DNA of 63,550 nucleotides from Faecalibacterium longum CLA-AA-H243 (GTDB taxonomy: Bacteria > Bacillota > Clostridia > Oscillospirales > Ruminococcaceae). The stretch lies in contig NZ_JAJEQG010000013.1 in NCBI RefSeq assembly GCF_020687245.1, positions 1 to 63,550 on the forward strand, given 5' to 3'. Position 1 is the first letter of the stretch. Each line of letters begins with the position of its first letter. The notes under the pieces are model-generated. The model worked only from the letters and a program-made list of their open reading frames with translations, did no database searches and was not told the origin of the DNA. Made by a program: the position numbers and the translations under genes. Below are positions 1,637 to 63,478 of this stretch, piece by piece.

Positions 1637-2198
1637 AGTAAAGTCCTCCCTCTGTCACGAATCCGTCCAGTTTTTCGTCATAGGCGTCCACTGCCGCTTT
1701 ATCCACCCGCTGGGCCTCAAAGGCCACACCTATTTTCACAGCCCGGGTGCAGCGGGGGAGGTAGCGGTCATAATAGCCTTTCCCCATCCCCACCCGGTGG
1801 CAGACTGCATCAAAAGCCGTGCAGGGGACCAGCACGAGGTCGAGCTTGTCCGGTGGCAAAATTGCAGACCGGCTCAAAATGGGCGTGCGGATGCCGTAAG
1901 TACCCACTTCCCAGCCGTCCGGCCCCGGCACGGCGGCTGTCAGCGAAAAGCTCTCGCCGCAGACGGGGTAGGCCAGCGTTTTGCCCTGCCGGGCCGCTTC
2001 CACAGCCAGCGCCGAGAGATCGGCTTCACCGCCGAAGGCCGCATAAAGCAGGATGTTTTCTGCCTTTTTGAAGCAGTCCAGAGCCATGATGCGGGCGCAG
2101 AGAGCGGCGTTGGAATGGGTGCGCTCGGTGTCCGACAACGCCCGGCGGGCCGCAATGCCCGCTTTGCGCTGTGCGGCTTTTTGCTCCGTGATGGTCAT
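1611..2198 (-). CDS. fau: 5-formyltetrahydrofolate cyclo-ligase
   Basis: ATP-dependent conversion of 5-formyl-THF to 5,10-methenyl-THF, returning the storage or inhibitory folate to the active pool. The 195-residue length and the C-terminal GMGKGYYDRYL signature are diagnostic. The start at 2198 follows AAAGGAG at 9 bases; a longer frame upstream has no ribosome site and runs into the promoter. It is the first gene of the operon fau-fchA-folD, transcribed from the promoter at 2266-2294 and divergent from glyA. The product it makes, methenyl-THF, is the substrate of FchA. Confidence 0.93.
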   Translation of the reverse strand: MTITEQKAAQRKAGIAARRALSDTERTHSNAALCARIMALDCFKKAENILLYAAFGGEADLSALAVEAARQGKTLAYPVCGESFSLTAAVPGPDGWEVGTYGIRTPILSRSAILPPDKLDLVLVPCTAFDAVCHRVGMGKGYYDRYLPRCTRAVKIGVAFEAQRVDKAAVDAYDEKLDGFVTEGGLYFGFDTTEL

Positions 2199-2265
2199 GG
2201 CAATGCGCTCCTTTCTGCACCCGGTGGGCAAATCTGCACAAAAACCGGGACGGATTTTTGTTATA

Positions 2266-2294
2266 ATAATAAGCGCTGAGCGCAGAAAAAGCAA
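2266..2294 (-). promoter_or_regulatory. Promoter of fau-fchA-folD
   Basis: Minus-strand -35 TTGCTT (2289-2294), 17-base spacer and -10 TATTAT (2266-2271), about 70 bases before the fau start. Confidence 0.65.
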
Positions 2295-2345
2295 GGCTTT
2301 GGCAGGATGGGTGAAATATCTTCATTTAACCGAAAAGAAACGAAT

Positions 2346-2362
2346 CAAACCGTATCGGTTTG
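2346..2362. promoter_or_regulatory. 17-bp palindromic putative operator upstream of glyA
   Basis: Perfect inverted repeat CAAACCG-TAT-CGGTTTG. It lies 13 bases upstream of the glyA -35 box and about 50 bases from the fau promoter, between the two divergent transcripts. No T-run follows, so it is not a terminator. Binding protein unknown. Confidence 0.5.
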
Positions 2363-2374
2363 TGCGAAATGCTG

Positions 2375-2403
2375 TTGAAGAAATCCACGATGTCTGGTAT
2401 CAT
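2375..2403 (+). promoter_or_regulatory. Promoter of glyA
   Basis: TTGAAG (2375-2380), 17-base spacer, extended -10 TGGTATCAT with TATCAT at 2398-2403. It leaves a leader of about 65 bases before the glyA start. Confidence 0.75.
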
Positions 2404-2476
2404 GGAAACAGACGGGCCGGAATGAGCGGACGCCCGCGCGAACTGATTTTTTGCATCAGAGAGAGGGGTAAATAGT

Positions 2477-3730
2477 ATGTACAACGATATGATGGATACC
2501 ATCGGCCTCGTGGAAAAGGCCGACCCGGAGCTGGCTGCGGCTATGAACCGTGAGCTGACCCGCCAGCGGGAAAATATCGAGCTCATCGCCAGCGAGAACA
2601 TCGTCTCGCCCGCCGTCATGGCCGCCATGGGCAGCATCCTCACCAACAAGTACGCCGAGGGCCTGCCCGGCAAACGCTACTACGGCGGCTGTGCCTATGT
2701 GGATGAGGTGGAGAACATCGCCATCCAGCGCGCCTGCAAGCTGTTCGGCGCAAAGTACGCCAACGTCCAGCCCCACTCCGGCGCACAGGCCAATCTGGCC
2801 GTCTACTTCGCCCTGCTCGATCTGGGCGATACCGTTATGGGCATGGACCTGTCTCAGGGCGGTCATCTGACCCACGGCTCTCCGGTGAATATGTCCGGCA
2901 AGAACTATCACTTCGTATCCTACGGCGTCGGCGAAGATGGCCGCATCGACTATGCTGAGCTGGAAAAGCAGGTCAAAAAGGTCCGTCCCAAGATGATCGT
3001 GGCAGGCGCTTCGGCCTACCCCCGTGCCATCGACTTCGAAAAGCTGGCTGAGATCGCCCACGGATACGGGGCCTTCCTGATGGTGGATATGGCCCACATC
3101 GCGGGTCTCGTGGCCGGCGGGATGCACCAGAGCCCGGTGCCTTATGCCGACGTCGTGACCACCACCACCCACAAGACCCTGCGCGGCCCCCGCGGCGGCC
3201 TCATCCTGACCAATAATGCTGTGCTGGCCAAGCGCATCAACTCTGCCGTCTTCCCCGGCACCCAGGGCGGCCCGCTGGAGCACGTCATCGCGGCCAAGGC
3301 CGTCTGCTTTGGCGAGGCACTCAAGCCCGAGTTCAAGGACTACGCCCGCAAGATCGTGGAGAACGCACAGGCCATGGCCGCTGAACTGCAGGCTCGCGGT
3401 GTCAAGCTGGTGTCCGGCGGCACCGACAACCACCTGATGCTCCTCGACCTGCGGGACGAGGAATGCACCGGCAAGGAGCTGGAAGCCCGCCTCGACAGCG
3501 TCCACATCACCGCCAACAAGAACACCGTCCCCGGCGAGACCCGCAGCCCCTTCGTGACTTCCGGCGTCCGTCTGGGTACTCCGGCTGTCACCACCCGGGG
3601 CATGGGCGAGGCCGAGATGAAAGTCATTGCGGACTGCATCGCCGACTGCATCTGGCACTACGACGAGAAGAAGGACGACATCTCCGCCCGTGTGCTGGCC
3701 CTGACCAAGGCTTTCCCCCTGTACGAATAA
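2477..3730 (+). CDS. glyA: Serine hydroxymethyltransferase
   Basis: PLP enzyme that interconverts serine + THF and glycine + 5,10-methylene-THF, feeding FolD. The 417 residues show the full fold: [12 protein letters not shown] near residue 35, the GKRYYGG segment, and the PLP-lysine motif [14 protein letters not shown] around residue 230. The start follows GAGAGGGG at a normal distance. It is divergent from fau-fchA-folD across a 278-base region with both promoters and one palindrome, so the two units together form a one-carbon module. A terminator follows at 3820-3871. Family and function are secure. Confidence 0.97.
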
Positions 3731-3750
3731 TGGATTTTTGACGTGTCTAA

Positions 3751-3794
3751 GCCTCTCCCTCTGGAAGAGGTGTCACCGAAGGTGACGGAGAGGG
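3751..3794. repeat. Half-copy of the dispersed repeat (right-end arm)
   Basis: Resembles the right end of the full repeat: a CCTCTCC...GAAGAGG hairpin, then GTGTCACCGAAGGTGACGGA and GAGGG. The left part of the element is absent on this side; a matching left arm lies at 3892-3934 in an unusual swapped order. Confidence 0.6.
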
Positions 3795-3819
3795 CAAGCT
3801 CGGTTCCAAAGAATATCTG

Positions 3820-3871
3820 CACAGCGATAAGCATTAGCTTTTGTAAGAGTGATGCTGTCGCTGTGTTTTTT
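3820..3871 (+). terminator. Terminator after glyA
   Basis: Stem CACAGCGA / TCGCTGTG (3820-3827, 3858-3865), extended by a second pairing AGCATTA / TGATGCT inside it, then six T. Confidence 0.75.
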
Positions 3872-3891
3872 ATTTCTCTGCAGCGTCCCTG

Positions 3892-3934
3892 CCCTCTCAG
3901 GCGCTGCGCGCCAGCTCTCCCAAGGGGAGAGCCT
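3892..3934. repeat. Half-copy of the dispersed repeat (left-end arm)
   Basis: Matches the left end of the full copy at 59429: CCTCTCAG, a short GC hairpin, then the CTCTCC..GGGGAGAG hairpin and GCCT. Bases 3935-4076, up to the small peptide gene, hold only its leader. A weak TAGGAT -10 with an extended TG is possible near 4010, with no good -35. Confidence 0.6.
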
Positions 3935-4076
3935 GAAAAGGAAATCATTTCCTCAGCCGCAGGGTCTGACATGCTTTGCCTTTCGTATCTGGTAGGATGG
4001 AATAGAGGACAGGCCCCGAGGGCGCTGACTCTGAACGAGGGAAAAAACTTCTCATCAGCGGAAAGGAAAGAATACT

Positions 4077-4313
4077 ATGAGTAATTATCAGATGCGGATG
4101 CCCGCCCAGTATACATCCATCGGGGACGACGAAATGGTGCTGCTCTGCGGCGGCGAGACCACGGCATGGCAGACGTTCCAGGACATTGGCCGTGTGCTGA
4201 ACTATGTGGCGCGCATTTTCTCGGCGGGCAGCTCCATCGTCAACAATGTGGTCACCATCGTCAATTATTTCAATAAGCTCGAAGACCTGCTCCCGGTCAT
4301 CGGGGAAGTGTGA
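4077..4313 (+). CDS. Orphan double-glycine-leader peptide, MAM-type leader
   Basis: A 78-residue protein that I do not recognise as a named family. Its first 26 residues look like a peptidase-cleaved leader: MRMPAQYTSIGDDEMVLLCG ending in a Gly-Gly pair at 25-26. The leader follows the pattern M-x-M-P-A-(N/Q)-(F/Y)-(S/T) seen in the two MAM-like proteins at 59777 and 63086. The predicted core is 52 residues, without a signal peptide, rich in V/I/N and likely amphipathic helical (motif SIVNNVVTIVNYFNKLEDLL). A good site (GGAAAGGAAAG) precedes the ATG. No exporter or immunity gene is adjacent; a terminator follows immediately. Likely a PCAT substrate in trans. Bacteriocin, signal or host-acting factor are all possible. 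Confidence 0.75.
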   Translation: MSNYQMRMPAQYTSIGDDEMVLLCGGETTAWQTFQDIGRVLNYVARIFSAGSSIVNNVVTIVNYFNKLEDLLPVIGEV

Positions 4314-4335
4314 GGCGCGGACGCGATAAAAGAAA

Positions 4336-4368
4336 AGGGGCTGTTGCAGTGCAACAGCCTCTTTGTGT
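4336..4368 (+). terminator. Terminator after the orphan peptide gene
   Basis: Perfect stem GGCTGTTGC-AGT-GCAACAGCC (4339-4359) followed by TCTTTGTGTG. The following 80 bases up to luxS hold two small inverted repeats (4382-4391 with 4414-4423, and 4422-4438) without a clear role. Confidence 0.8.
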
Positions 4369-4452
4369 GTTATAGCTTATAGCAGTTTGCGTTTTTAATG
4401 CACAAGCAACATCCGCAAACTGCATATCGCAAATATGCCGTTTCGATAGGCA

Positions 4453-55846: not shown

Positions 55847-57322
55847 TTACCAGAACCAATAGCGTTTCTTGATGACGATGTAGGCAATGATGATGCCCAC
55901 GATGACCACAAGGCCCGCGATGAAGAAGGTCATGTCCACATGGGCGAAGCGGAGATTCTGGGTGGTCAGCAGGTATTCGCCCGCCGTGTCCGCCTCGAGG
56001 ACATTATCCTTGTAGCTGTTGAGGAACTGCCACTTGCCCTTGACGGCATTGTGCAGGTAGACGCGGGTGTAGGCGGCGTTGTCGCCGGTCATCTCGACCT
56101 GAACGACGCCCGGCAGAGCCTCGCCGCCGTTGAGGGTGAAGGTGACGCCATACTCAGAGGGGGCAAAGCTCAGGGCTGTGCTCACCTGCGCGGAGGTGCT
56201 CTTTACATCGCGGCCCGCGATGCGGATGGTGTAGTTATCGGCCTCGACCACGAGGGTCTTGCCGTTCAGACGGAGGGCATTCAGCATCTCGCCGGTGATG
56301 GTGGGGACCTCGCGCTGTGCGAAGGTCACTTCGTCGGTGCCGTCGGCCTCGATGGCCTCCACGACGGGGTCGGTGATGACCTCACCGTTGCTGCCGTCAG
56401 TGCTGCCGCCGCCATTGCCGGAGCTGGAAGCATTCCGGTTGACGATGACCGTCACCGAAGCGGACGCCGTGCCGTTGGAGACGACGATGGAGGTCGCGCC
56501 CGTACCCACGGCAGTGATGACGCCCTTGGCGCTCACAGTGGCCACCTTGGTGTCATTGGACTTGAAGGTGAGGGACTGGGAGGCGGAAGACGGGGTCACT
56601 TTGCCGGTGATGGTGCGGCTGGCACCCGGTTTGAGGACGACATAGCTCGTGTTCAGGTCGATGGACTGACGGTCTACGCCGCTGTTGACGACCTTGACAG
56701 TGGCCGATGCGCTCACATCGCCGCAGGTGGCGGTGATGGTGGCGGTGCCGGGGGCGACACCGGTGACTTTGCCGAAGTTGTTGACGGTAGCCACAGCGGG
56801 ATCCGAGGAGCTGAGGCTCACGCTGGCGTAATTCGATGCGCTGGAAGGCAGCACGCCCAGCGACAGGGAAGTGGTCTCGCCGACAGCGATGGTGCTGGAG
56901 GCCAGCGTGATGTCCATCTCCTTGACGATCATGGATTCATCCAGCTCGGTGGTGATGGTGTAGACACAGCTCACGCCGTCTGCGCTGGCGATGACCTGCG
57001 CCGTGCCGACGCCCACCGCCTGCGCCACGCCCTCAGACGTCACGTTCACGATGGTGCTGTCGTTGGACATAAAAGTTACCGTGGCATTGCGTGCGGCCTT
57101 TGCGGGCAGAATGACCGGTGAGAGCTGCTGCTGCGTCCCTACCGTCATGGTGGAGGCGTAGCTGCCGGTCTCGACGCTCTCCACAGCCGCAGCGGACCAG
57201 GGCAGAGAGAGGGCAGCGGCCGCGTTCAGGGGACCGGCTGCAGAGGCCGGAAGCGCAGCGCCGGCGGCCAGCAGGCCCAGCAGAGCGGTGCTCACGGCCA
57301 GCATTTTCAGGTTCAGTTTCAT
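55847..57322 (-). CDS. Secreted, membrane-anchored BIG2-domain protein
   Basis: A 491-residue surface protein: signal peptide (about 1-28, ending ALPASAA), about three bacterial Ig-like BIG2 domains (about 50-300, each with a V-x-A-V/T-G-x-G-T strand such as AVGVGTAQVIA and VTGVAPGTATITA), a Ser/Gly linker, a further beta-rich region and a C-terminal membrane segment (about 463-483) ending in KKRYWFW. No sortase motif is seen. Start 57322 behind AGAGGT. It is last in the order GyrI-like, HlyD-like, BIG2, 34 bases after HlyD. It may be the surface-exposed part of an export or adhesion complex. Confidence 0.88.
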   Translation of the reverse strand: MKLNLKMLAVSTALLGLLAAGAALPASAAGPLNAAAALSLPWSAAAVESVETGSYASTMTVGTQQQLSPVILPAKAARNATVTFMSNDSTIVNVTSEGVAQAVGVGTAQVIASADGVSCVYTITTELDESMIVKEMDITLASSTIAVGETTSLSLGVLPSSASNYASVSLSSSDPAVATVNNFGKVTGVAPGTATITATCGDVSASATVKVVNSGVDRQSIDLNTSYVVLKPGASRTITGKVTPSSASQSLTFKSNDTKVATVSAKGVITAVGTGATSIVVSNGTASASVTVIVNRNASSSGNGGGSTDGSNGEVITDPVVEAIEADGTDEVTFAQREVPTITGEMLNALRLNGKTLVVEADNYTIRIAGRDVKSTSAQVSTALSFAPSEYGVTFTLNGGEALPGVVQVEMTGDNAAYTRVYLHNAVKGKWQFLNSYKDNVLEADTAGEYLLTTQNLRFAHVDMTFFIAGLVVIVGIIIAYIVIKKRYWFW

Positions 57323-57356: not shown

Positions 57357-58469
57357 TTAGCGGAACAGAACGCCCAGAGCTTCCATCGCGTATTCGAAAT
57401 AGGTCAGCTTGTCGTACTCCACGCGGGCGGTGACGCTCATACCGTTGGACAGATCGACCTTATCGCCGCTGTTGCTGATGACGTAGGTGCTGTCCGGGGT
57501 GATGGTCATTTTGTAGTAGGAGCCGGAGGAGCTGGCGGTCACATCGCTGTCGATGGAGGTCACGGTGCCGGTCAGGGTGCCGTAGGAATACTCCGACAGG
57601 CCGGTGATGGCGATCTTGCAGGGGTCGCCCACATGGAGCAGCGGCCGGTCGCTGAGGGTGACGTAAGCCACCACCTCGAGGTCGCTGTTCTCGCTGGCGA
57701 CGGTGGCCAGCGGGGTGCCGGCGCTGAGCACCATGCCCACCTTATAGGGCGTGTCCATGTGGATGACGCCGGAGGTGGGAGCATAGATGTAGTAGTCGTT
57801 GGCGCCGGTGCTCAGGGCGTCCATCTGGCTCTGCAGATTGTCGATGTTGCTCTGCACACTGGTCAGGCTGGCGGAGATCGACTGCAGGGTAGAGTAATAC
57901 AGGGCCTCCACCTCGCTCTGGTTCTGCTCCATCAGGGCCTTGATCTGCTCATCGGAGTAGCCTGCGGCCTGATAGGGCGAGGCGTCGAAAGCCTTCTGGG
58001 CAACCTGGCTCTTGTAGGTCTCGTACTGGTAGTAGTAGGGCTGGTCGTCAATGTCCGTCTCGCTGAAGTAGTTCTTGTCGTCCTGAATGGACTTGACCAG
58101 CTTCTCGTATTGGCTCTTCTGCTTTTTGTAGATGTCCAGCTGGCTCTGGATGCTGTCCTGCTGCATGTCGAGGTCGGTGCTCTTGATGTGAGCGATGAGG
58201 TCGCCCTCATTGACGTAGGTACCCTCGGCGATGTTCAGCTCGGTGATGGAGCCGGAGTAGCTGGACATGATGTAGGTCTTGTTGGCGGCCTGCACCGAGC
58301 CGCTGGACTGACTGACGTAGGTGCGGTAGTTTTTTGTGCTCCACACCACGAGGAAGAGGATGAGGGCAGCCGTCAGGAGAATGAGCGCGTAGCCAAAAGG
58401 CGGCAGCTTTTTCTCCATCATGATGCGGCGGTCCTGCAGCTCGTTGATGTCGCGGATGGTCGTCGTCAT
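57357..58469 (-). CDS. HlyD-family membrane-fusion adaptor
   Basis: A 370-residue adaptor with a cytoplasmic N-terminus, one membrane segment (about 27-47), a biotinyl-lipoyl-like part (GSITELNIAEGTYVNEGDLI), a long coiled coil (about 95-225) and the second lipoyl half with IYAPTSGVIHMDTPYKVGMV. Such adaptors accompany peptidase-containing ABC exporters in some Gram-positive bacteriocin systems (LcnD-like). Its ATG at 58469 lies one base after the stop of the GyrI-like gene, indicating coupling. It is the best candidate partner of the PCAT at 60314. Confidence 0.9.
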   Translation of the reverse strand: MTTTIRDINELQDRRIMMEKKLPPFGYALILLTAALILFLVVWSTKNYRTYVSQSSGSVQAANKTYIMSSYSGSITELNIAEGTYVNEGDLIAHIKSTDLDMQQDSIQSQLDIYKKQKSQYEKLVKSIQDDKNYFSETDIDDQPYYYQYETYKSQVAQKAFDASPYQAAGYSDEQIKALMEQNQSEVEALYYSTLQSISASLTSVQSNIDNLQSQMDALSTGANDYYIYAPTSGVIHMDTPYKVGMVLSAGTPLATVASENSDLEVVAYVTLSDRPLLHVGDPCKIAITGLSEYSYGTLTGTVTSIDSDVTASSSGSYYKMTITPDSTYVISNSGDKVDLSNGMSVTARVEYDKLTYFEYAMEALGVLFR

Positions 58470-58470
58470 A

Positions 58471-58926
58471 TTACTTTGTCTCCATAAAGGTATCCACAAC
58501 GCCCTCGTCATCATCCTGATTGACGAAGATGGTGTAGACAGTGCCGGTCAGCTCGAGCTCGTGCTCAAAAGCCATGATGTTCAGCTTCTGGGAGGCAAGG
58601 CCGCTCTGGCTCATGGGTCCGACGTAGTGGGCGTACAGGCAGTTGCGCACGCGGAGCACAGCGTCCATGGAGTAGCCGGCCTCCATGCGGGGGATGAGCT
58701 GGGTGGCCTGCTGCATCATATAGACTTCGGGCTGGGGGTTGGGGCCGGCGGGCAGTTTGATGCACTGCACAAGGGGGCCGAGGGGCTGTGCGCCGTTGCT
58801 TTTGATAAAGTTGTGCATCTGGGTCAGCACGATCTGCATATTGTTGAACTCTTCGGGCTGGATGCGGCGGCTGACCACATTGGTCAGCTTGAGGGTCTTG
58901 TTTTCTGCGGTCTGGATCTCTCTCAT
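58471..58926 (-). CDS. GyrI-like small-molecule-binding domain protein
   Basis: A 151-residue stand-alone domain related to the effector-binding part of AraC-type regulators and GyrI: pattern LTNVVSRRIQPEEFNNMQIV at the start, GAQPLGPLVQCI in the middle and a C-terminal VYTIFVNQDDDEGVVDTFME. It has no DNA-binding domain. Start 58926 with AGGTGG. It is tightly coupled to the HlyD-like gene, so a role in export or in sensing its state is likely, but the ligand is unknown. Confidence 0.75.
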   Translation of the reverse strand: MREIQTAENKTLKLTNVVSRRIQPEEFNNMQIVLTQMHNFIKSNGAQPLGPLVQCIKLPAGPNPQPEVYMMQQATQLIPRMEAGYSMDAVLRVRNCLYAHYVGPMSQSGLASQKLNIMAFEHELELTGTVYTIFVNQDDDEGVVDTFMETK

Positions 58927-58960
58927 GATTTTATACCACCTGTTCTTGGTTTCATTGCTT

Positions 58961-58985
58961 GTAATAGGCAATGGTAAAATGTAAC
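58961..58985 (+). repeat. Left inverted end of the DUF559 cassette
   Basis: GTAATAGGCAATGGTAAAAT and five more bases; 20 of 25 positions match the reverse complement of 59588-59612. It lies 3 bases from the DUF559 stop codon. Confidence 0.6.
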
Positions 58986-58988
58986 GTA

Positions 58989-59366
58989 TCACTCTACTGT
59001 GTTAAGACGCTGTTGAATCGTGCGGTCGATTTGAGTGCAAACCGCTTCAAATTGCCGATTTACTTCGCGGTTGGAAAACCGCAGTACCTCAATTCCATAC
59101 TGCTCAATGATGCAGCTTCGTTCGTGGTCGTAAAGCTGTCCCTGTTCTGTATAGTGTTGAGAACCGTCCAACTCAATGACCAGTTTCGCTTCTGCGCAAT
59201 AAAAGTCAACGATAAAAAATTCTATCACACGCTGTTTATAGATTTTTATCGGATAATCACGCAGAAAACCAAACCAGAGCTTACGCTCCTGCGGGGTCAT
59301 CTCGTGGCGCAAATGCTTTGCACGAGAATTTAAGCGGCGGTCATAGGGCAGATTATGTACAGGCAT
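58989..59366 (-). CDS. DUF559 endonuclease-like protein
   Basis: A 125-residue protein of the DUF559 family, related to very-short-patch-repair and other PD-(D/E)XK nucleases. It has the family start with LRHEMTPQERKLWFGFLRD and the core FIVDFYCAEAKLVIELDGSQ. The acidic residues of the nuclease fold (D in VDFYC, E and D in VIELDG) are present. Start 59366 behind AGGAGA. It lies inside a 652-base segment with imperfect inverted ends, next to a full dispersed repeat, so it looks inserted between the MAM/PCAT genes and the GyrI-HlyD-BIG2 genes. Confidence 0.88.
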   Translation of the reverse strand: MPVHNLPYDRRLNSRAKHLRHEMTPQERKLWFGFLRDYPIKIYKQRVIEFFIVDFYCAEAKLVIELDGSQHYTEQGQLYDHERSCIIEQYGIEVLRFSNREVNRQFEAVCTQIDRTIQQRLNTVE

Positions 59367-59655: not shown

Positions 59656-59703
59656 TAATAAAAAAATAAGGTATGCCCGGAGGCAGGTGCCTCCGGGCAT
59701 ACC
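59656..59703 (-). terminator. Terminator after mam-like 1
   Basis: 16-base perfect stem GGTATGCCCGGAGGCA / TGCCTCCGGGCATACC (59670-59703) with T-rich run on the minus strand. Confidence 0.9.
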
Positions 59704-59776: not shown

Positions 59777-60199
59777 TTAGACACCAAGATTACCGTCTGC
59801 GTCGGTAATGCCGGAAACGGCGTCGTTGAAGCCGATCTTGGCAGGAGCGGTGCCCAGGGTGTAGACGACAGAAGCCATGCCCAGAGTACGCATGACCTTG
59901 TTGCCGAAGGTCATGTCGTCGCCATTGACATCACCGTAGATGTTCTTCTTCAGAGCGCCGTTGTCGCCGAAGATCTTGTTGTCATCGCCCCAGTTGCCGC
60001 TGAACATAACGCCCAGAGTGGAGTTGACAGTCTTCTGGAAGAAGGAGTTGCTGATCAGAGTGATCAGGTTGGTGTTGAACTGCTTGACGTTAGCAGCGCC
60101 CCAGACAGGAGCGGTGGTGTCAGCCAGGATGGAGAACAGGTCAGCGCCGCCGTAGACGACCTCAGAGTTAACAGCAGTAAAGTTTGCAGGCATCATCAT
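59777..60199 (-). CDS. MAM-like double-glycine-leader protein 1
   Basis: A 140-residue homologue of the microbial anti-inflammatory molecule (MAM) of F. prausnitzii, whose start as I recall is MMMPANYSVIAENEM with a later Gly-Gly. Here the leader is MMMPANFTAVNSEVVYGG (18 residues), followed by a 122-residue core with FNTNLITLISNSFFQKTVNS, MFSGNWGDDNKIFGD and TLGMASVVYTLGTAPAK. No cysteine and no signal peptide. The first ATG fits the AAGGGAG site 9 bases away. It follows the PCAT gene by 114 bases and ends at a strong terminator. Likely exported by PCAT after Gly-Gly cleavage; effects on host or other bacteria are inference from the family. Confidence 0.9.
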   Translation of the reverse strand: MMMPANFTAVNSEVVYGGADLFSILADTTAPVWGAANVKQFNTNLITLISNSFFQKTVNSTLGVMFSGNWGDDNKIFGDNGALKKNIYGDVNGDDMTFGNKVMRTLGMASVVYTLGTAPAKIGFNDAVSGITDADGNLGV

Positions 60200-60253
60200 A
60201 ATGAATTACTCCCTTCAAATGAATGAAAAACAAATTTAGTCGGCTCAGTTTCC

Positions 60254-60303
60254 GGATGCGCATCCAGCCAAAAAGCCATTTATGTAACTGCGTGCGCACG
60301 CAG
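60254..60303 (-). other. Two perfect palindromes between PCAT and mam-like 1
   Basis: CTGCGTGCGCACGCAG (60288-60303) and GGATGCGCATCC (60254-60265). As RNA hairpins on the minus-strand transcript they could stabilise the mam-like message or partly terminate; only short T-runs follow. Confidence 0.5.
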
Positions 60304-60313
60304 CTGCAACGAA

Positions 60314-62653
60314 TTAGTAGGTGATGGACTCGCCATCGTCCTCGTCCTCCACCACCTTGGCGGCAGAGACAGGGGCTGCGGGCTTCGACCCGCGCTTCTT
60401 ATCGCGGAAGATGCCCTGCTGCAGGCTCCAGAGCTCATAATACTTGCCCTGCTTTTCCAGCAGCTCTTCGTGGGTGCCGCGCTCTACGATCTCGCCGTGG
60501 TCCATGACCAGGATGAGGTCACAATCACGGATGGTGGAGAGGCGGTGGGCGACGATCAGCATCGAGCGGTCTGCAAGCTGGTTGTAGATCATATCAAAGA
60601 TGGTATTCTCTGTGCCAAAGTCCAGACTGCTGGTGGATTCGTCCAGGATATAGAGGTTCGCATCCTTCAGGAAGGCACGGGCCAGTGCAAGGCGCTGCTT
60701 CTCACCGCCTGAGAGGCCGTTGCCGGCTTCTTCCAGATAGGTGTTGTACTGCAGCGGCAGCTTGCGGATGAACTCGTGGGCATCTGCCTTCTTGGCAGCG
60801 GCCTTGACCTCATCGAGGCTGGCTTCCGGTCGGGAAATGCGAATGTTGTCGTAGATGGTCTTGCTGAACAGCTCGACGTTCTGGGGGACATAGGCGATGG
60901 CACGGCGGACGGATGCATTGCTGTACTCGTCCAGATCGACGCCGCCTACGCTGATGGTACCGCTTTCCGGCTCATAATACTTGAGCAGGAGTTTGGTGAT
61001 GGTGGATTTGCCGCTGCCGCTGCTGCCCACCAGTGCCACCTTCTTGCCATAGGGGATGGTGAAGGAGACGTGGCTCAGGGCCGGGGAACGGCTGCCGTAG
61101 CGGAAGGAGACATCCTTGAACTCAATGTCACCGTCGATTTTTTCCATCTCGGTGTATTCGCGGGTCTCGTCCTGCTCGGACTCATAATCCATGATCTCGG
61201 TCAGACGCTTGATGGAAATCTGGGCCTGCTGGATGGACATCTGCAGACTGACCAGCTCGCTGACCGGGTTCGTAAAGTAAGAGGAAAGAGTGCTGAACGC
61301 CATATAGCCGCCCAGCGTCATCTCACCATTCAGCACCTGCATGATACCCACATAAGAGGTGACCATACCGAGGATGGTGGTGATGAGGGTGGAGATAAGG
61401 GACTGCACCGTGCTGATCTTGCTGGAGCGCAGGCTTATCTTCAGGCTCTTGATGTATTCCCGCTCCAGAGCTTCCAGCTCACGGTCCTCTTCGGCGTTGC
61501 ACTTGACGGTCTCGATGCCGCGGAGGCTCTCGATCATCTGGCTGTTGAGGATAGCAGACTGCTGCATGGTCTCTTCGTTGATGCGCTTGAAGGGCTGCTT
61601 GAAGATGAACACCAACAGGATGCTCAGCAGGGTGGTGAAAATCGAAATAGAGAAGAGGGTGGCATTCATCCGGAAGAGGATGACGCCGGTGACGCAGGCC
61701 ATCACGACATCCATCACGACGCTCAGCGCAATGCTGGTGAACACCGATTTGATGGTGCTGGCGTCGGAGTAGCGGGTGGTGATCTCGCCGGTCTTGCGGG
61801 TGGCAAAGAACTTCATGGGCAGTTTGAAAACATGCCCGAAGTAGCCCAGCATCAGGGGAATATCGACCTTGATGGACAGATAGATGAGCACCCACTGCCG
61901 CACCATACTGATGAGTGCGCTGGTGACGCTCACGATGCTGAACACCAGAATAACAGCCACCAACAGGCTCTTCAAGCCGTAGGGGAGTATCTCATCCATC
62001 AGTATTTTGTTATACATCGAGGATGCGATACCCAGAACGGTCATGATGACCGAGCTGAGGATGGCGTAGAAGAAAAGCTTTTTCTGCGGCAGCAGCAGGT
62101 CGAGGAAACGCTTGACCATGCTACCCTGTTTCTGCTTGCCTGCCTTGAACTCCGAGGTCGGGGTCATCAGGAGCAGAACGCCGGTAAAGTTCTTGTAGAA
62201 CTCGTCGAGTGAGATTTTTTTCAGCTCTTTTGCCGGGTCGCCGATGATGACGTAGTCGCGGCATCTGAACTTCTTTCCTTCGTCAGCGCACTTCTTGCGC
62301 TCCTCTTCCTGCCGGAGCATGTGCCGACGCCGCTCGCCGTCGTCTTTGATGGTGGTCTTCTTGAAGACCGTCACAAAGTGGGCCAGACCCTCGTCGGTGA
62401 TGACCTGTGCAATACAGGGAGTGGTAAATTCGCTGAGGAAGTTTTCCCGGTCTACGCGGACGGCGGCGGTGCTGAATCCCAGCTCCTGCGCTGCCTTTTC
62501 CATACCGGTCAGGTTTGTGCCTTTCAGGTCGGTACCCATCATGTCCCGCAGTCGGGTGATGGTGATCTCCTTTTTGTAATGGAGGCACACCATTGCGAGA
62601 CAGGCGGCAGCGCAGTCTGTGGTGTCGTGCTGCCGGACATAGGTATAACGCAT
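60314..62653 (-). CDS. Peptidase-containing ABC exporter (C39 peptidase, PCAT)
   Basis: A 779-residue exporter that cleaves double-glycine leaders and transports the product. The C39 domain has Q8, catalytic C14 (DTTDCAAACLA), H92 (GLAHFVTVFK) and D139 (IIGDPAKE). Between H92 and D139 is an unusual charged insertion at about 100-132 (with ERRRHMLRQEEERKKC). The membrane domain (about 190-480) has six helices, and the ATPase has Walker A GSSGSGKST (543-551), signature LSGGEKQ (647-653), Walker B LYILDE (667-672) and H703. The acidic C-terminal tail is EDEDDG-rich. Start 62653 with AAAGGAAG. It lies between two mam-like genes, its probable substrates. Confidence 0.95.
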   Translation of the reverse strand: MRYTYVRQHDTTDCAAACLAMVCLHYKKEITITRLRDMMGTDLKGTNLTGMEKAAQELGFSTAAVRVDRENFLSEFTTPCIAQVITDEGLAHFVTVFKKTTIKDDGERRRHMLRQEEERKKCADEGKKFRCRDYVIIGDPAKELKKISLDEFYKNFTGVLLLMTPTSEFKAGKQKQGSMVKRFLDLLLPQKKLFFYAILSSVIMTVLGIASSMYNKILMDEILPYGLKSLLVAVILVFSIVSVTSALISMVRQWVLIYLSIKVDIPLMLGYFGHVFKLPMKFFATRKTGEITTRYSDASTIKSVFTSIALSVVMDVVMACVTGVILFRMNATLFSISIFTTLLSILLVFIFKQPFKRINEETMQQSAILNSQMIESLRGIETVKCNAEEDRELEALEREYIKSLKISLRSSKISTVQSLISTLITTILGMVTSYVGIMQVLNGEMTLGGYMAFSTLSSYFTNPVSELVSLQMSIQQAQISIKRLTEIMDYESEQDETREYTEMEKIDGDIEFKDVSFRYGSRSPALSHVSFTIPYGKKVALVGSSGSGKSTITKLLLKYYEPESGTISVGGVDLDEYSNASVRRAIAYVPQNVELFSKTIYDNIRISRPEASLDEVKAAAKKADAHEFIRKLPLQYNTYLEEAGNGLSGGEKQRLALARAFLKDANLYILDESTSSLDFGTENTIFDMIYNQLADRSMLIVAHRLSTIRDCDLILVMDHGEIVERGTHEELLEKQGKYYELWSLQQGIFRDKKRGSKPAAPVSAAKVVEDEDDGESITY

Positions 62654-62905
62654 AGATGCTTCCTTTGTGGTTTCTATTTCAAAACGCCCGCCTTGTGGCT
62701 GAGGACGATTTGGCGAAGAAGAAAGGGCTTCCATTCCTGACGCCTCACCCGCTTCTCCAATAAAGCAGCATACAACTCTCTGCCTCGCACTGCCCTGCGA
62801 CAAAGCGGGGCAGAGAGTAGCTGCTATCAAAAGAAGGGAGCGCCTACCCTTTGATCATTTTGACCGGCCCGGAGAGGGGATTTTGACGTACCGTCTCCTA
62901 AACCT
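62654..62905 (-). promoter_or_regulatory. Long structured leader of the PCAT gene
   Basis: About 250 bases between the promoter and the start codon without a convincing gene. A nested hairpin lies at 62775-62818: outer stem ACTCTCTGCC / GGCAGAGAGT, inner stem TCGCA / TGCGA. I do not recognise a known riboswitch class in it. Confidence 0.5.
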
Positions 62906-62912
62906 TGGGCAT

Positions 62913-62941
62913 AGTATAACACATTCTGTCGGCTTCTTCAA
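62913..62941 (-). promoter_or_regulatory. Promoter of PCAT-mam-like 1
   Basis: Minus strand TTGAAG (62936-62941), 17 bases, TATACT (62913-62918) with extended TG. Bases 62942-63000 are very AT-rich. Confidence 0.75.
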
Positions 62942-63015
62942 GAGGACAATTTTTAATAAACCCTTAAATTTTGAAAAAAATGTGAAAAAAGTCTCAGTTT
63001 GGTAACAGGAAGGCA

Positions 63016-63054
63016 GCAAAAAGGAGCGGCGAATCTTTCGATTCGCCGCTCCTT
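63016..63054 (-). terminator. Terminator after mam-like 2
   Basis: Stem AGGAGCGGCGAATC / GATTCGCCGCTCCT with loop TTTC, followed on the minus strand by T5. It separates mam-like 2 from the PCAT promoter. Confidence 0.9.
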
Positions 63055-63085
63055 CAATAGCTCTTTGGGAAAATCTCAGATGAGA

Positions 63086-63478
63086 TTAGACATTGGTGCT
63101 GGCGACATTCTTGACAGTGAAGATCTTAGCGTCAGAAGTGCCCAGAGTGTAGACAACAGAAGCCAGACCCAGAGTGGTCATGATCTTGTTGCCGAAGTTC
63201 TGGTCGTCACCACCGGGAACACGACCAACCTTGTACAGAGCAGTGAGGCTGCCGTCGTCGCCGAACAGCTTGTTGTCATCGCCCCAGCTGCCGCTGAACA
63301 TGGTGCCCAGAGTAGCGTTGATCACACGCTGGAAGAAGCTGTTGCTGACCAGAGTGATAATGTTGGTGGAGAACTGCTTGACATTGGCAGCAGTCCATGC
63401 GTTGGGCAGGTAGTCAGCCACAGCGCCGCCGTAGACGACCTCTGCGTTCACAGCAGAGAAGTTTGCAGGCATCATCAT
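63086..63478 (-). CDS. MAM-like double-glycine-leader protein 2
   Basis: A 130-residue paralogue of mam-like 1. The leader MMMPANFSAVNAEVVYGG is identical to the other at 16 of 18 positions, and the 24 bases before the start codon, with the GGGAG site, are identical too (63479-63502 and 60200-60223). The core keeps ANVKQF, NIITLVSNSFFQ, MFSGSWGDDNKLFGDDG and LASVVYTLGTSDAKI. It differs just after Gly-Gly (five residues shorter) and in the C-terminal tail. It has its own terminator; its promoter is cut by or just at the window edge (a TATATT -10 near 63509-63514 has only a weak -35). Likely the first exported substrate of the neighbouring PCAT. Confidence 0.9.
   Translation of the reverse strand: MMMPANFSAVNAEVVYGGAVADYLPNAWTAANVKQFSTNIITLVSNSFFQRVINATLGTMFSGSWGDDNKLFGDDGSLTALYKVGRVPGGDDQNFGNKIMTTLGLASVVYTLGTSDAKIFTVKNVASTNV

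Follow-up and report, generated by a model that had tools for sequence, protein, structure and literature searches.

A single PCAT exporter at a MAM locus of Faecalibacterium longum as the probable hub of a dispersed, leader-tagged secretome

We analyzed a 63,550-nucleotide stretch of DNA from Faecalibacterium longum CLA-AA-H243 (hereafter the window), which makes up all of contig C4 in an 89-contig assembly and which carries, on the minus strand at the contig end, two genes related to the Faecalibacterium protein MAM and, between them, the gene of a PCAT (an exporter that combines a C39 peptidase with an ABC transporter). MAM is frequently described as the anti-inflammatory protein of Faecalibacterium, a dominant commensal of the gut. 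An earlier examination of the same DNA (the sequence-only reading) had proposed that MAM proteins leave the cell through the neighbouring PCAT. The three open reading frames, in the order mam2, PCAT and mam1, were found where it had placed them, and the PCAT is complete. The parts of the locus and its adaptor gene are as follows.

63086 to 63478, minus strand: mam2, a MAM-family protein of 130 amino acids (leader, residues 1-18, at 63425-63478)
60314 to 62653, minus strand: PCAT (P0003), with C39 peptidase, ABC transmembrane domain and ATPase, 779 amino acids from its ATG
62261 to 62347, minus strand: charged insertion in the PCAT's C39 domain, about 25-30 residues long, between His92 and Asp139, placed by alignment
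59777 to 60199, minus strand: mam1, a MAM-family protein of 140 amino acids (leader, residues 1-18, at 60146-60199)
57357 to 58514, minus strand: P0004, a HlyD-type membrane-fusion adaptor, assigned by family scan

Judged by sequence comparison, the homology of the window proteins to MAM is real, as the sequence-only reading had expected. One of them (P0002) shared 45% identity over residues 1-123 (E 1.8e-16) with the MAM of F. duncaniae, represented here by the 135-residue product of locus L010 in genome G003, which contains the 42-residue N-terminal and the C-terminal peptides of that protein printed in PMC12184118. The two window MAMs (P0001 and P0002) were 69% identical to each other over residues 1-120. 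Each has an N-terminal leader of 18 residues with Gly-Gly at its end, namely MMMPANFSAVNAEVVYGG and MMMPANFTAVNSEVVYGG, again as previously read, and both leaders fit the published motif MMMPANx(8,11)VxGG (PMC12184118; PMC8836110) in the form of MMMPAN, eight residues and VYGG. Analysis of hydropathy alone revealed no strongly hydrophobic N-terminal stretch, which agrees with the claim that these proteins lack a Sec signal. The predicted MAM structure had a mean pLDDT of 51. Both MAMs of F. prausnitzii L2-6, which are not necessarily the same as the window MAMs, showed moderate NF-kB inhibition (PMC8836110).

Two side observations concern the MAM genes of other genomes. A tandem second MAM with the leader MTFPANYAVxAEDELTYVxGG was seen in L005-L008, L014, L015, L018, L022 and L029 (e.g., L005:1075-1449), and such MTFPAN paralogues would be missed by the motif published in PMC12184118 and PMC8836110. 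The first MAM gene of G021 (L009/L160) is without the stretch bearing Gly-Gly; it could represent a naturally uncleavable MAM or be an assembly artefact.

The PCAT exceeded the curated cut-off of TIGR01193, an NCBI model of peptide cleavage and export (589.8 versus 523.85 bits), and it was the sole C39 exporter found in this genome by Pfam C39 search. The catalytic residues Q8, C14, H92 and D139, which had been listed as kept, are all in place, and the same residues were found by eye in 30 of 30 aligned C39 domains (26 from Faecalibacterium and four from other genera). By sequence, the best solved relatives of the PCAT were PDB 4ry2, 6v9z and others (551 bits), and pneumococcal ComA (8hf4) scored 472 bits. 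Of these, 4ry2 and 6v9z are PCAT1 of Clostridium thermocellum, an organism named in PMC12184118; PCAT1 and ComA are ABC exporters of the same type as the window PCAT. The charged insertion, which splits the C39 domain into two halves and gives rise to paired C39 matches in each genome, was present in all 26 Faecalibacterium PCATs and in none of the four related PCATs from other genera.

With regard to the genus as a whole, a sample of 31 Faecalibacterium genomes contained MAM in 26 cases (25 by homology, plus G010, in which a leader match adjoining the PCAT was assigned by core clustering), and the PCAT was found in exactly these 26 genomes, with a single PCAT locus in each (Pfam C39 search). 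The HlyD adaptor showed the same distribution and was always on the same contig as the PCAT, within about 3 kb of it, the matches in G006 and G011 having one in-frame stop each. The co-occurrence of MAM, PCAT and HlyD gave a Fisher p of 6e-6 each, with no correction for shared ancestry. None of the three was found in the other five genomes, of which G019 and G020 are at least 90% complete and the remaining three 77-89%. In 18 of the 26 genomes MAM was near the PCAT, and in eight it was at least 68 kb away or on another contig, a separation that had already been noted in some strains (PMC8836110); three genomes, i.e., the window species (G000), its sister species (G002) and G015, had MAM genes on either side of the PCAT. 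The proposal that MAM is exported by the neighbouring PCAT is well supported by co-occurrence in the same 26 of 31 genomes, and such export has been modelled (PMC12184118).

The MAM alignment also gave extra matches, confined to the leader, elsewhere in the Faecalibacterium genomes. Based on a model of 22 columns covering the leader alone (E<=0.05, at which about 1.5 chance matches are expected in 31 genomes), leader matches were found in 27 of the 31 genomes, with three to eight matches in each of the 26 PCAT genomes and none at this threshold in four of the five PCAT-less ones. The dispersed loci were read for 14 of the 26 PCAT genomes, and the proteins were clustered by core, i.e., the sequence after Gly-Gly. 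In addition to MAM (39 proteins in 26 genomes), we found F2, which forms adjacent pairs or triples and in which F2A and F2B are homologous neighbours (e.g., L161, L169 and L173); F3 (73-83 residues; 10 of the 14 genomes read); F4 (146-167 residues) and its neighbour F5 (86-121 residues); F6 and F7, in three genomes each; and further single proteins. F2, F4 and F5 were found in all 14 genomes read, and most tagged genes except MAM were dispersed. The F2B core was predicted with good confidence to be a helical bundle, with no fold match, and none of the representatives scanned exceeded a Pfam or NCBIfam cut-off or matched PHROGs. As a separate observation, PCAT, adaptor, MAM and every tag were not found in G018, G019, G020 and G026, which are 79-99% complete.

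In the genome of the window species, nine leader-bearing proteins were found (two MAMs, F2A, F2B, F3, F4, F5 with a weak leader, F6 and F8) together with one C39 exporter, so the two cores counted by the sequence-only reading were an undercount. The third leader-bearing gene of the window itself is the following.

4077 to 4313, plus strand: F3, 78 amino acids, about 56 kb from the PCAT

This gene has relatives in nine other genomes of the genus, which share a core around 'ARxFSxxSSIxNN', and it adjoins a probable serine hydroxymethyltransferase gene; F2 in this genome adjoins a gene presumed to be dnaJ. A single leader protein of 107 amino acids was also seen on contig C5 (L138:5240-5563), with neighbours resembling genes for a serine/threonine kinase and for PP2C phosphatases.

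Beyond the genus, we examined a family sample of 297 genomes from 126 genera, in which the leader model (E<=1e-4) and a P0003-like PCAT (E<=1e-170) matched the same eight genomes: four Faecalibacterium genomes and G086, G209, G273 and G321. Since 59 of the 297 genomes have some C39 domain (E<=1e-10) and the tag was present in only eight, 51 genomes have other C39 proteins and no such tag at E<=1e-4. In an order sample of 315 genomes, leader and P0003-like PCAT again matched the same four, three of them Faecalibacterium genomes already positive in the family sample and the sole new one being G504, from another family. In all five positives outside Faecalibacterium, the tagged genes that were found lie within about 5 kb of the PCAT, and the cores read there differ from those of Faecalibacterium.

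The tag also has a conserved register: Pro occupies -18, -15 is aromatic and -12 hydrophobic, Glu lies at -8 and Met or Leu at -7, and Gly-Gly ends the tag. All of the 34 long MAM leaders have Pro -18 and Glu -8, and in the other clustered Faecalibacterium cargos each of these two residues is present in 62 of 63, the sole exception apparently being an F4 leader that ends in GGG and was counted from the first pair. In F5, which was counted apart, Pro -18 is present in 12 of 15. Nearly all MAMs had been found by whole-protein homology to P0002, and the other cargos by the leader itself.

From the distribution of PCAT and tag, both within the genus and in the two larger samples, we conclude that a single exporter probably handles a dispersed secretome, with MAM as one of its cargos. 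We consider it likely that the single PCAT is a general exporter for leader-tagged proteins and that the locus is its home. With somewhat less assurance, but still as a likely reading, this one PCAT would be the hub of a genus-wide Faecalibacterium secretome composed of MAM and at least five uncatalogued families with a shared tag and a fixed ruler of 18 residues from the Pro to the cut; the export of MAM, its place in the envelope and perhaps its host effects would then be part of a co-exported set, with a MAM ruler of 15 in the window lineage and of 18 for its other clearly tagged cargos. In such a system, MAM1 and MAM2 would be made as precursors that dock on the PCAT's C39 domain through their N-terminal tag, Cys14, His92 and Asp139 with Gln8 would cut after Gly-Gly, and the ABC part would carry the core across the membrane in an ATP-driven step, with the HlyD adaptor as a partner. 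The mature MAM cores would be kept mainly at the cell envelope, and the same PCAT would export, from scattered loci, F2, F3, F4, F6 and F7, which have a clear tag, and F5, which has a weak one. We infer cleavage, transport and the HlyD partnership in this species, as well as the transport of the other cargos and the cargo functions, from the sequences, the conservation of the catalytic residues and of the tag, the presence of one C39 exporter per genome and the co-occurrence, all of which are observed. For F. duncaniae MAM, neither the supernatant nor the LiCl extract yielded peptides with leader residues (PMC12184118).

Several observations weigh against this proposal. First, one envelope peptide spectrum of F. 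duncaniae MAM kept the leader (PMC12184118). Second, a few genomes deviate from the general pattern: G025 (77% complete) had four leader matches and no PCAT was found in it; G020, which is without a PCAT, had a weak C39 match in a 293-residue open reading frame, too short for a PCAT; and in G028 (L240, PCAT at about 2048-4389) the PCAT frame is split near residue 190, yet MAM and other cargos are present, where the split may be an assembly or sequencing error or a broken gene. Third, the F5 leaders are weak matches to the leader model, and the taxa compared are not independent. Moreover, leader model A2 was built partly from cargos that it then found, including the leaders of G086, G209 and G321 (genomes first found with a MAM-only alignment, the PCAT being disregarded), and the fully independent positives are G273 and G504 only. 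The register counts of the non-MAM cargos are biased towards ungapped leaders because those cargos were found through the leader model. Finally, all four MAM leaders of the window species and its sister species depart from the register, having Pro at -15 and Glu at -6.

One alternative, which appears possible but doubtful, is that the tagged proteins, including MAM, are bacteriocin-like, with paired and fast-evolving cores that a PCAT of bacteriocin type exports against competing bacteria, and that the envelope and host roles of MAM are secondary. The model passed by the PCAT, TIGR01193, is named bacteriocin_ABC, and sub-threshold similarities were observed between F4 and Bacteriocin_IIc (E 5e-4), F2B and enterocin alpha/beta (E 0.007), and F. 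duncaniae MAM near its leader and the lactococcin G families (E 0.04-0.07), but no match reached the curated cut-off of a bacteriocin family. Members often form adjacent pairs (MAM/MAM, F2A/F2B and F4/F5), and leaders were conserved while cores diverged between G000 and G002: the short MAM leaders are 18/18 identical in both genes, with cores 73% (mam2) and 72% (mam1) identical, and in F2B 24 of 25 leader residues and 38 of 83 core residues are identical. On the other hand, accessory bacteriocins are unlike the universal presence of F2, F4 and F5 in the 14 PCAT genomes read, and most of the tagged cores are larger than class II bacteriocins. No obvious immunity gene was seen in the neighbourhoods viewed, whose small open reading frames were not exhaustively covered.

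The MAM leaders of the window species, whose register anomaly was missed by the sequence-only reading, raise a second and unlikely alternative, namely that the PCAT does not handle these 18-residue leaders as normal substrates because a 3-residue shortening spoils docking, in which case MAM would be uncut, poorly cut or handled otherwise. The arrangement of Pro -15 and Glu -6 in 4/4 MAMs of the two species, as opposed to Pro -18 and Glu -8 in 34/34 long leaders, is in its favour. Where the Gly-Gly substrate pattern has a hydrophobic residue at -12, Glu at -8, Met or Leu at -7, a hydrophobic residue at -4 and Gly-Gly, the window MAM leaders have Phe -12, Asn -8, Ala or Ser at -7, Val -4 and Gly-Gly, in a register unlike that of the other leaders. 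The pneumococcal exporters ComAB and BlpAB are sensitive to leader positions -15, -12, -7 and -4, and RtgAB to the region from -22 to -18; an N-terminal leader region with Pro -18 promotes secretion through RtgAB (PMC7018657). However, Gly-Gly, Val -4 and Phe -12 are present in the short leaders, and the mam2 leader is identical between the two species in spite of silent changes and so looks maintained, whereas the identity of the mam1 leader, in which there is no nucleotide change at all, says little. No compensating change is obvious in the C39 domains of G000 and G002. In G000, all other cargos but the weak F5 hold the normal register. Since the short leaders are out of register and the pneumococcal position rules are as described, either the PCAT of the window species may tolerate a shorter ruler or MAM may be processed differently there. 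The short leaders offer a natural experiment on how PCATs measure substrates.

In profile comparison, F2A and F2B were related (98% probability, E 2.6e-14) and MAM and F4 were weakly similar (37% probability, E 3.5e-4), suggesting that F4 may be a distant MAM relative. That the tag is shared through common descent of entire genes and not through selection by one exporter, so that the dispersed proteins need not use the PCAT, is a very improbable explanation, as these two pairs speak for it but the remaining 26 of 28 family pairs reached at most 3.1% probability, no better than column-shuffled controls (up to 3.7%), and the tag tracks the P0003-like PCAT in both larger samples.

The reading of one PCAT with many cargos adds to an arrangement that is partly known. 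The two-MAM/PCAT arrangement and the export hypothesis were published for F. prausnitzii L2-6 (PMC8836110, 2022), and a MAM-PCAT locus with a Gly-Gly leader, as in the window, is described for L2-6 and other strains (PMC8836110; PMC12184118). In the more recent account (PMC12184118, 2025), the leader was modelled in the C39 site, PCAT export was proposed, and MAM was the most abundant envelope protein, proposed to be hexameric and possibly an S-layer-like assembly. The suggestion of the sequence-only reading that MAM proteins are effectors is not borne out; the published abundance and possible lattice (PMC12184118) favour an envelope role for MAM, for which there is at least as much support as for an effector role. 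These accounts treat MAM as the substrate, and in the portions available nothing was seen on dispersed cargos, leader register or the C39 insertion; a search of the PMC12184118 main text for words beginning with 'other cargo', 'other substrates' or 'bacteriocin' gave no match. In the open-access literature, no account of the dispersed cargo families was found among the matches listed. The two-MAM/PCAT locus is known; the multi-cargo system may be new.

Pneumococcal ComAB, BlpAB and RtgAB resemble the proposed Faecalibacterium PCAT in that one exporter handles several Gly-Gly peptides, including some from other loci; for example, ComAB exports the Gly-Gly peptide BlpC of an unlinked locus (PMC4739728). 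The pneumococcal cargos are pheromones and bacteriocins, whereas Faecalibacterium genomes with a PCAT have just one, together with several conserved cores that are about 50-130 residues long. If the multi-cargo reading is true, removing or blocking the PCAT would abolish the entire secretome, the effects ascribed to MAM would have to be tested again, and there would be a testable list of small candidate proteins of the surface or the secreted fraction.

The remaining features of the locus and of the adaptor cluster are as follows.

63020 to 63055, minus strand: probable terminator 3' of mam2, a hairpin of 16 pairs leading into a T-run (fold -34 kcal/mol, z -6.8)
59670 to 59703, minus strand: terminator-like 15-pair hairpin 3' of mam1, from the terminator scan
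58471 to 58992, minus strand: P0005, an uncharacterised open reading frame in the adaptor cluster, with no family over cut-off
55847 to 57322, minus strand: adaptor-cluster protein carrying Ig-like domains of the Big_2 family, assigned by family scan

The mam2 hairpin (63020-63055) was absent from the list of the terminator scan. Because a strong hairpin with a T-run lies 3' of mam2 and another hairpin 3' of mam1, mam2 is probably its own transcript, separate from that of the PCAT. Downstream of the MAM/PCAT genes are a DUF559 gene, the uncharacterised open reading frame, the HlyD adaptor and the Big_2 protein; strain A2-165 is likewise described as having a cluster of HlyD, Ig-domain and third open reading frame with a DUF559 gene nearby (PMC8836110; PMC12184118).

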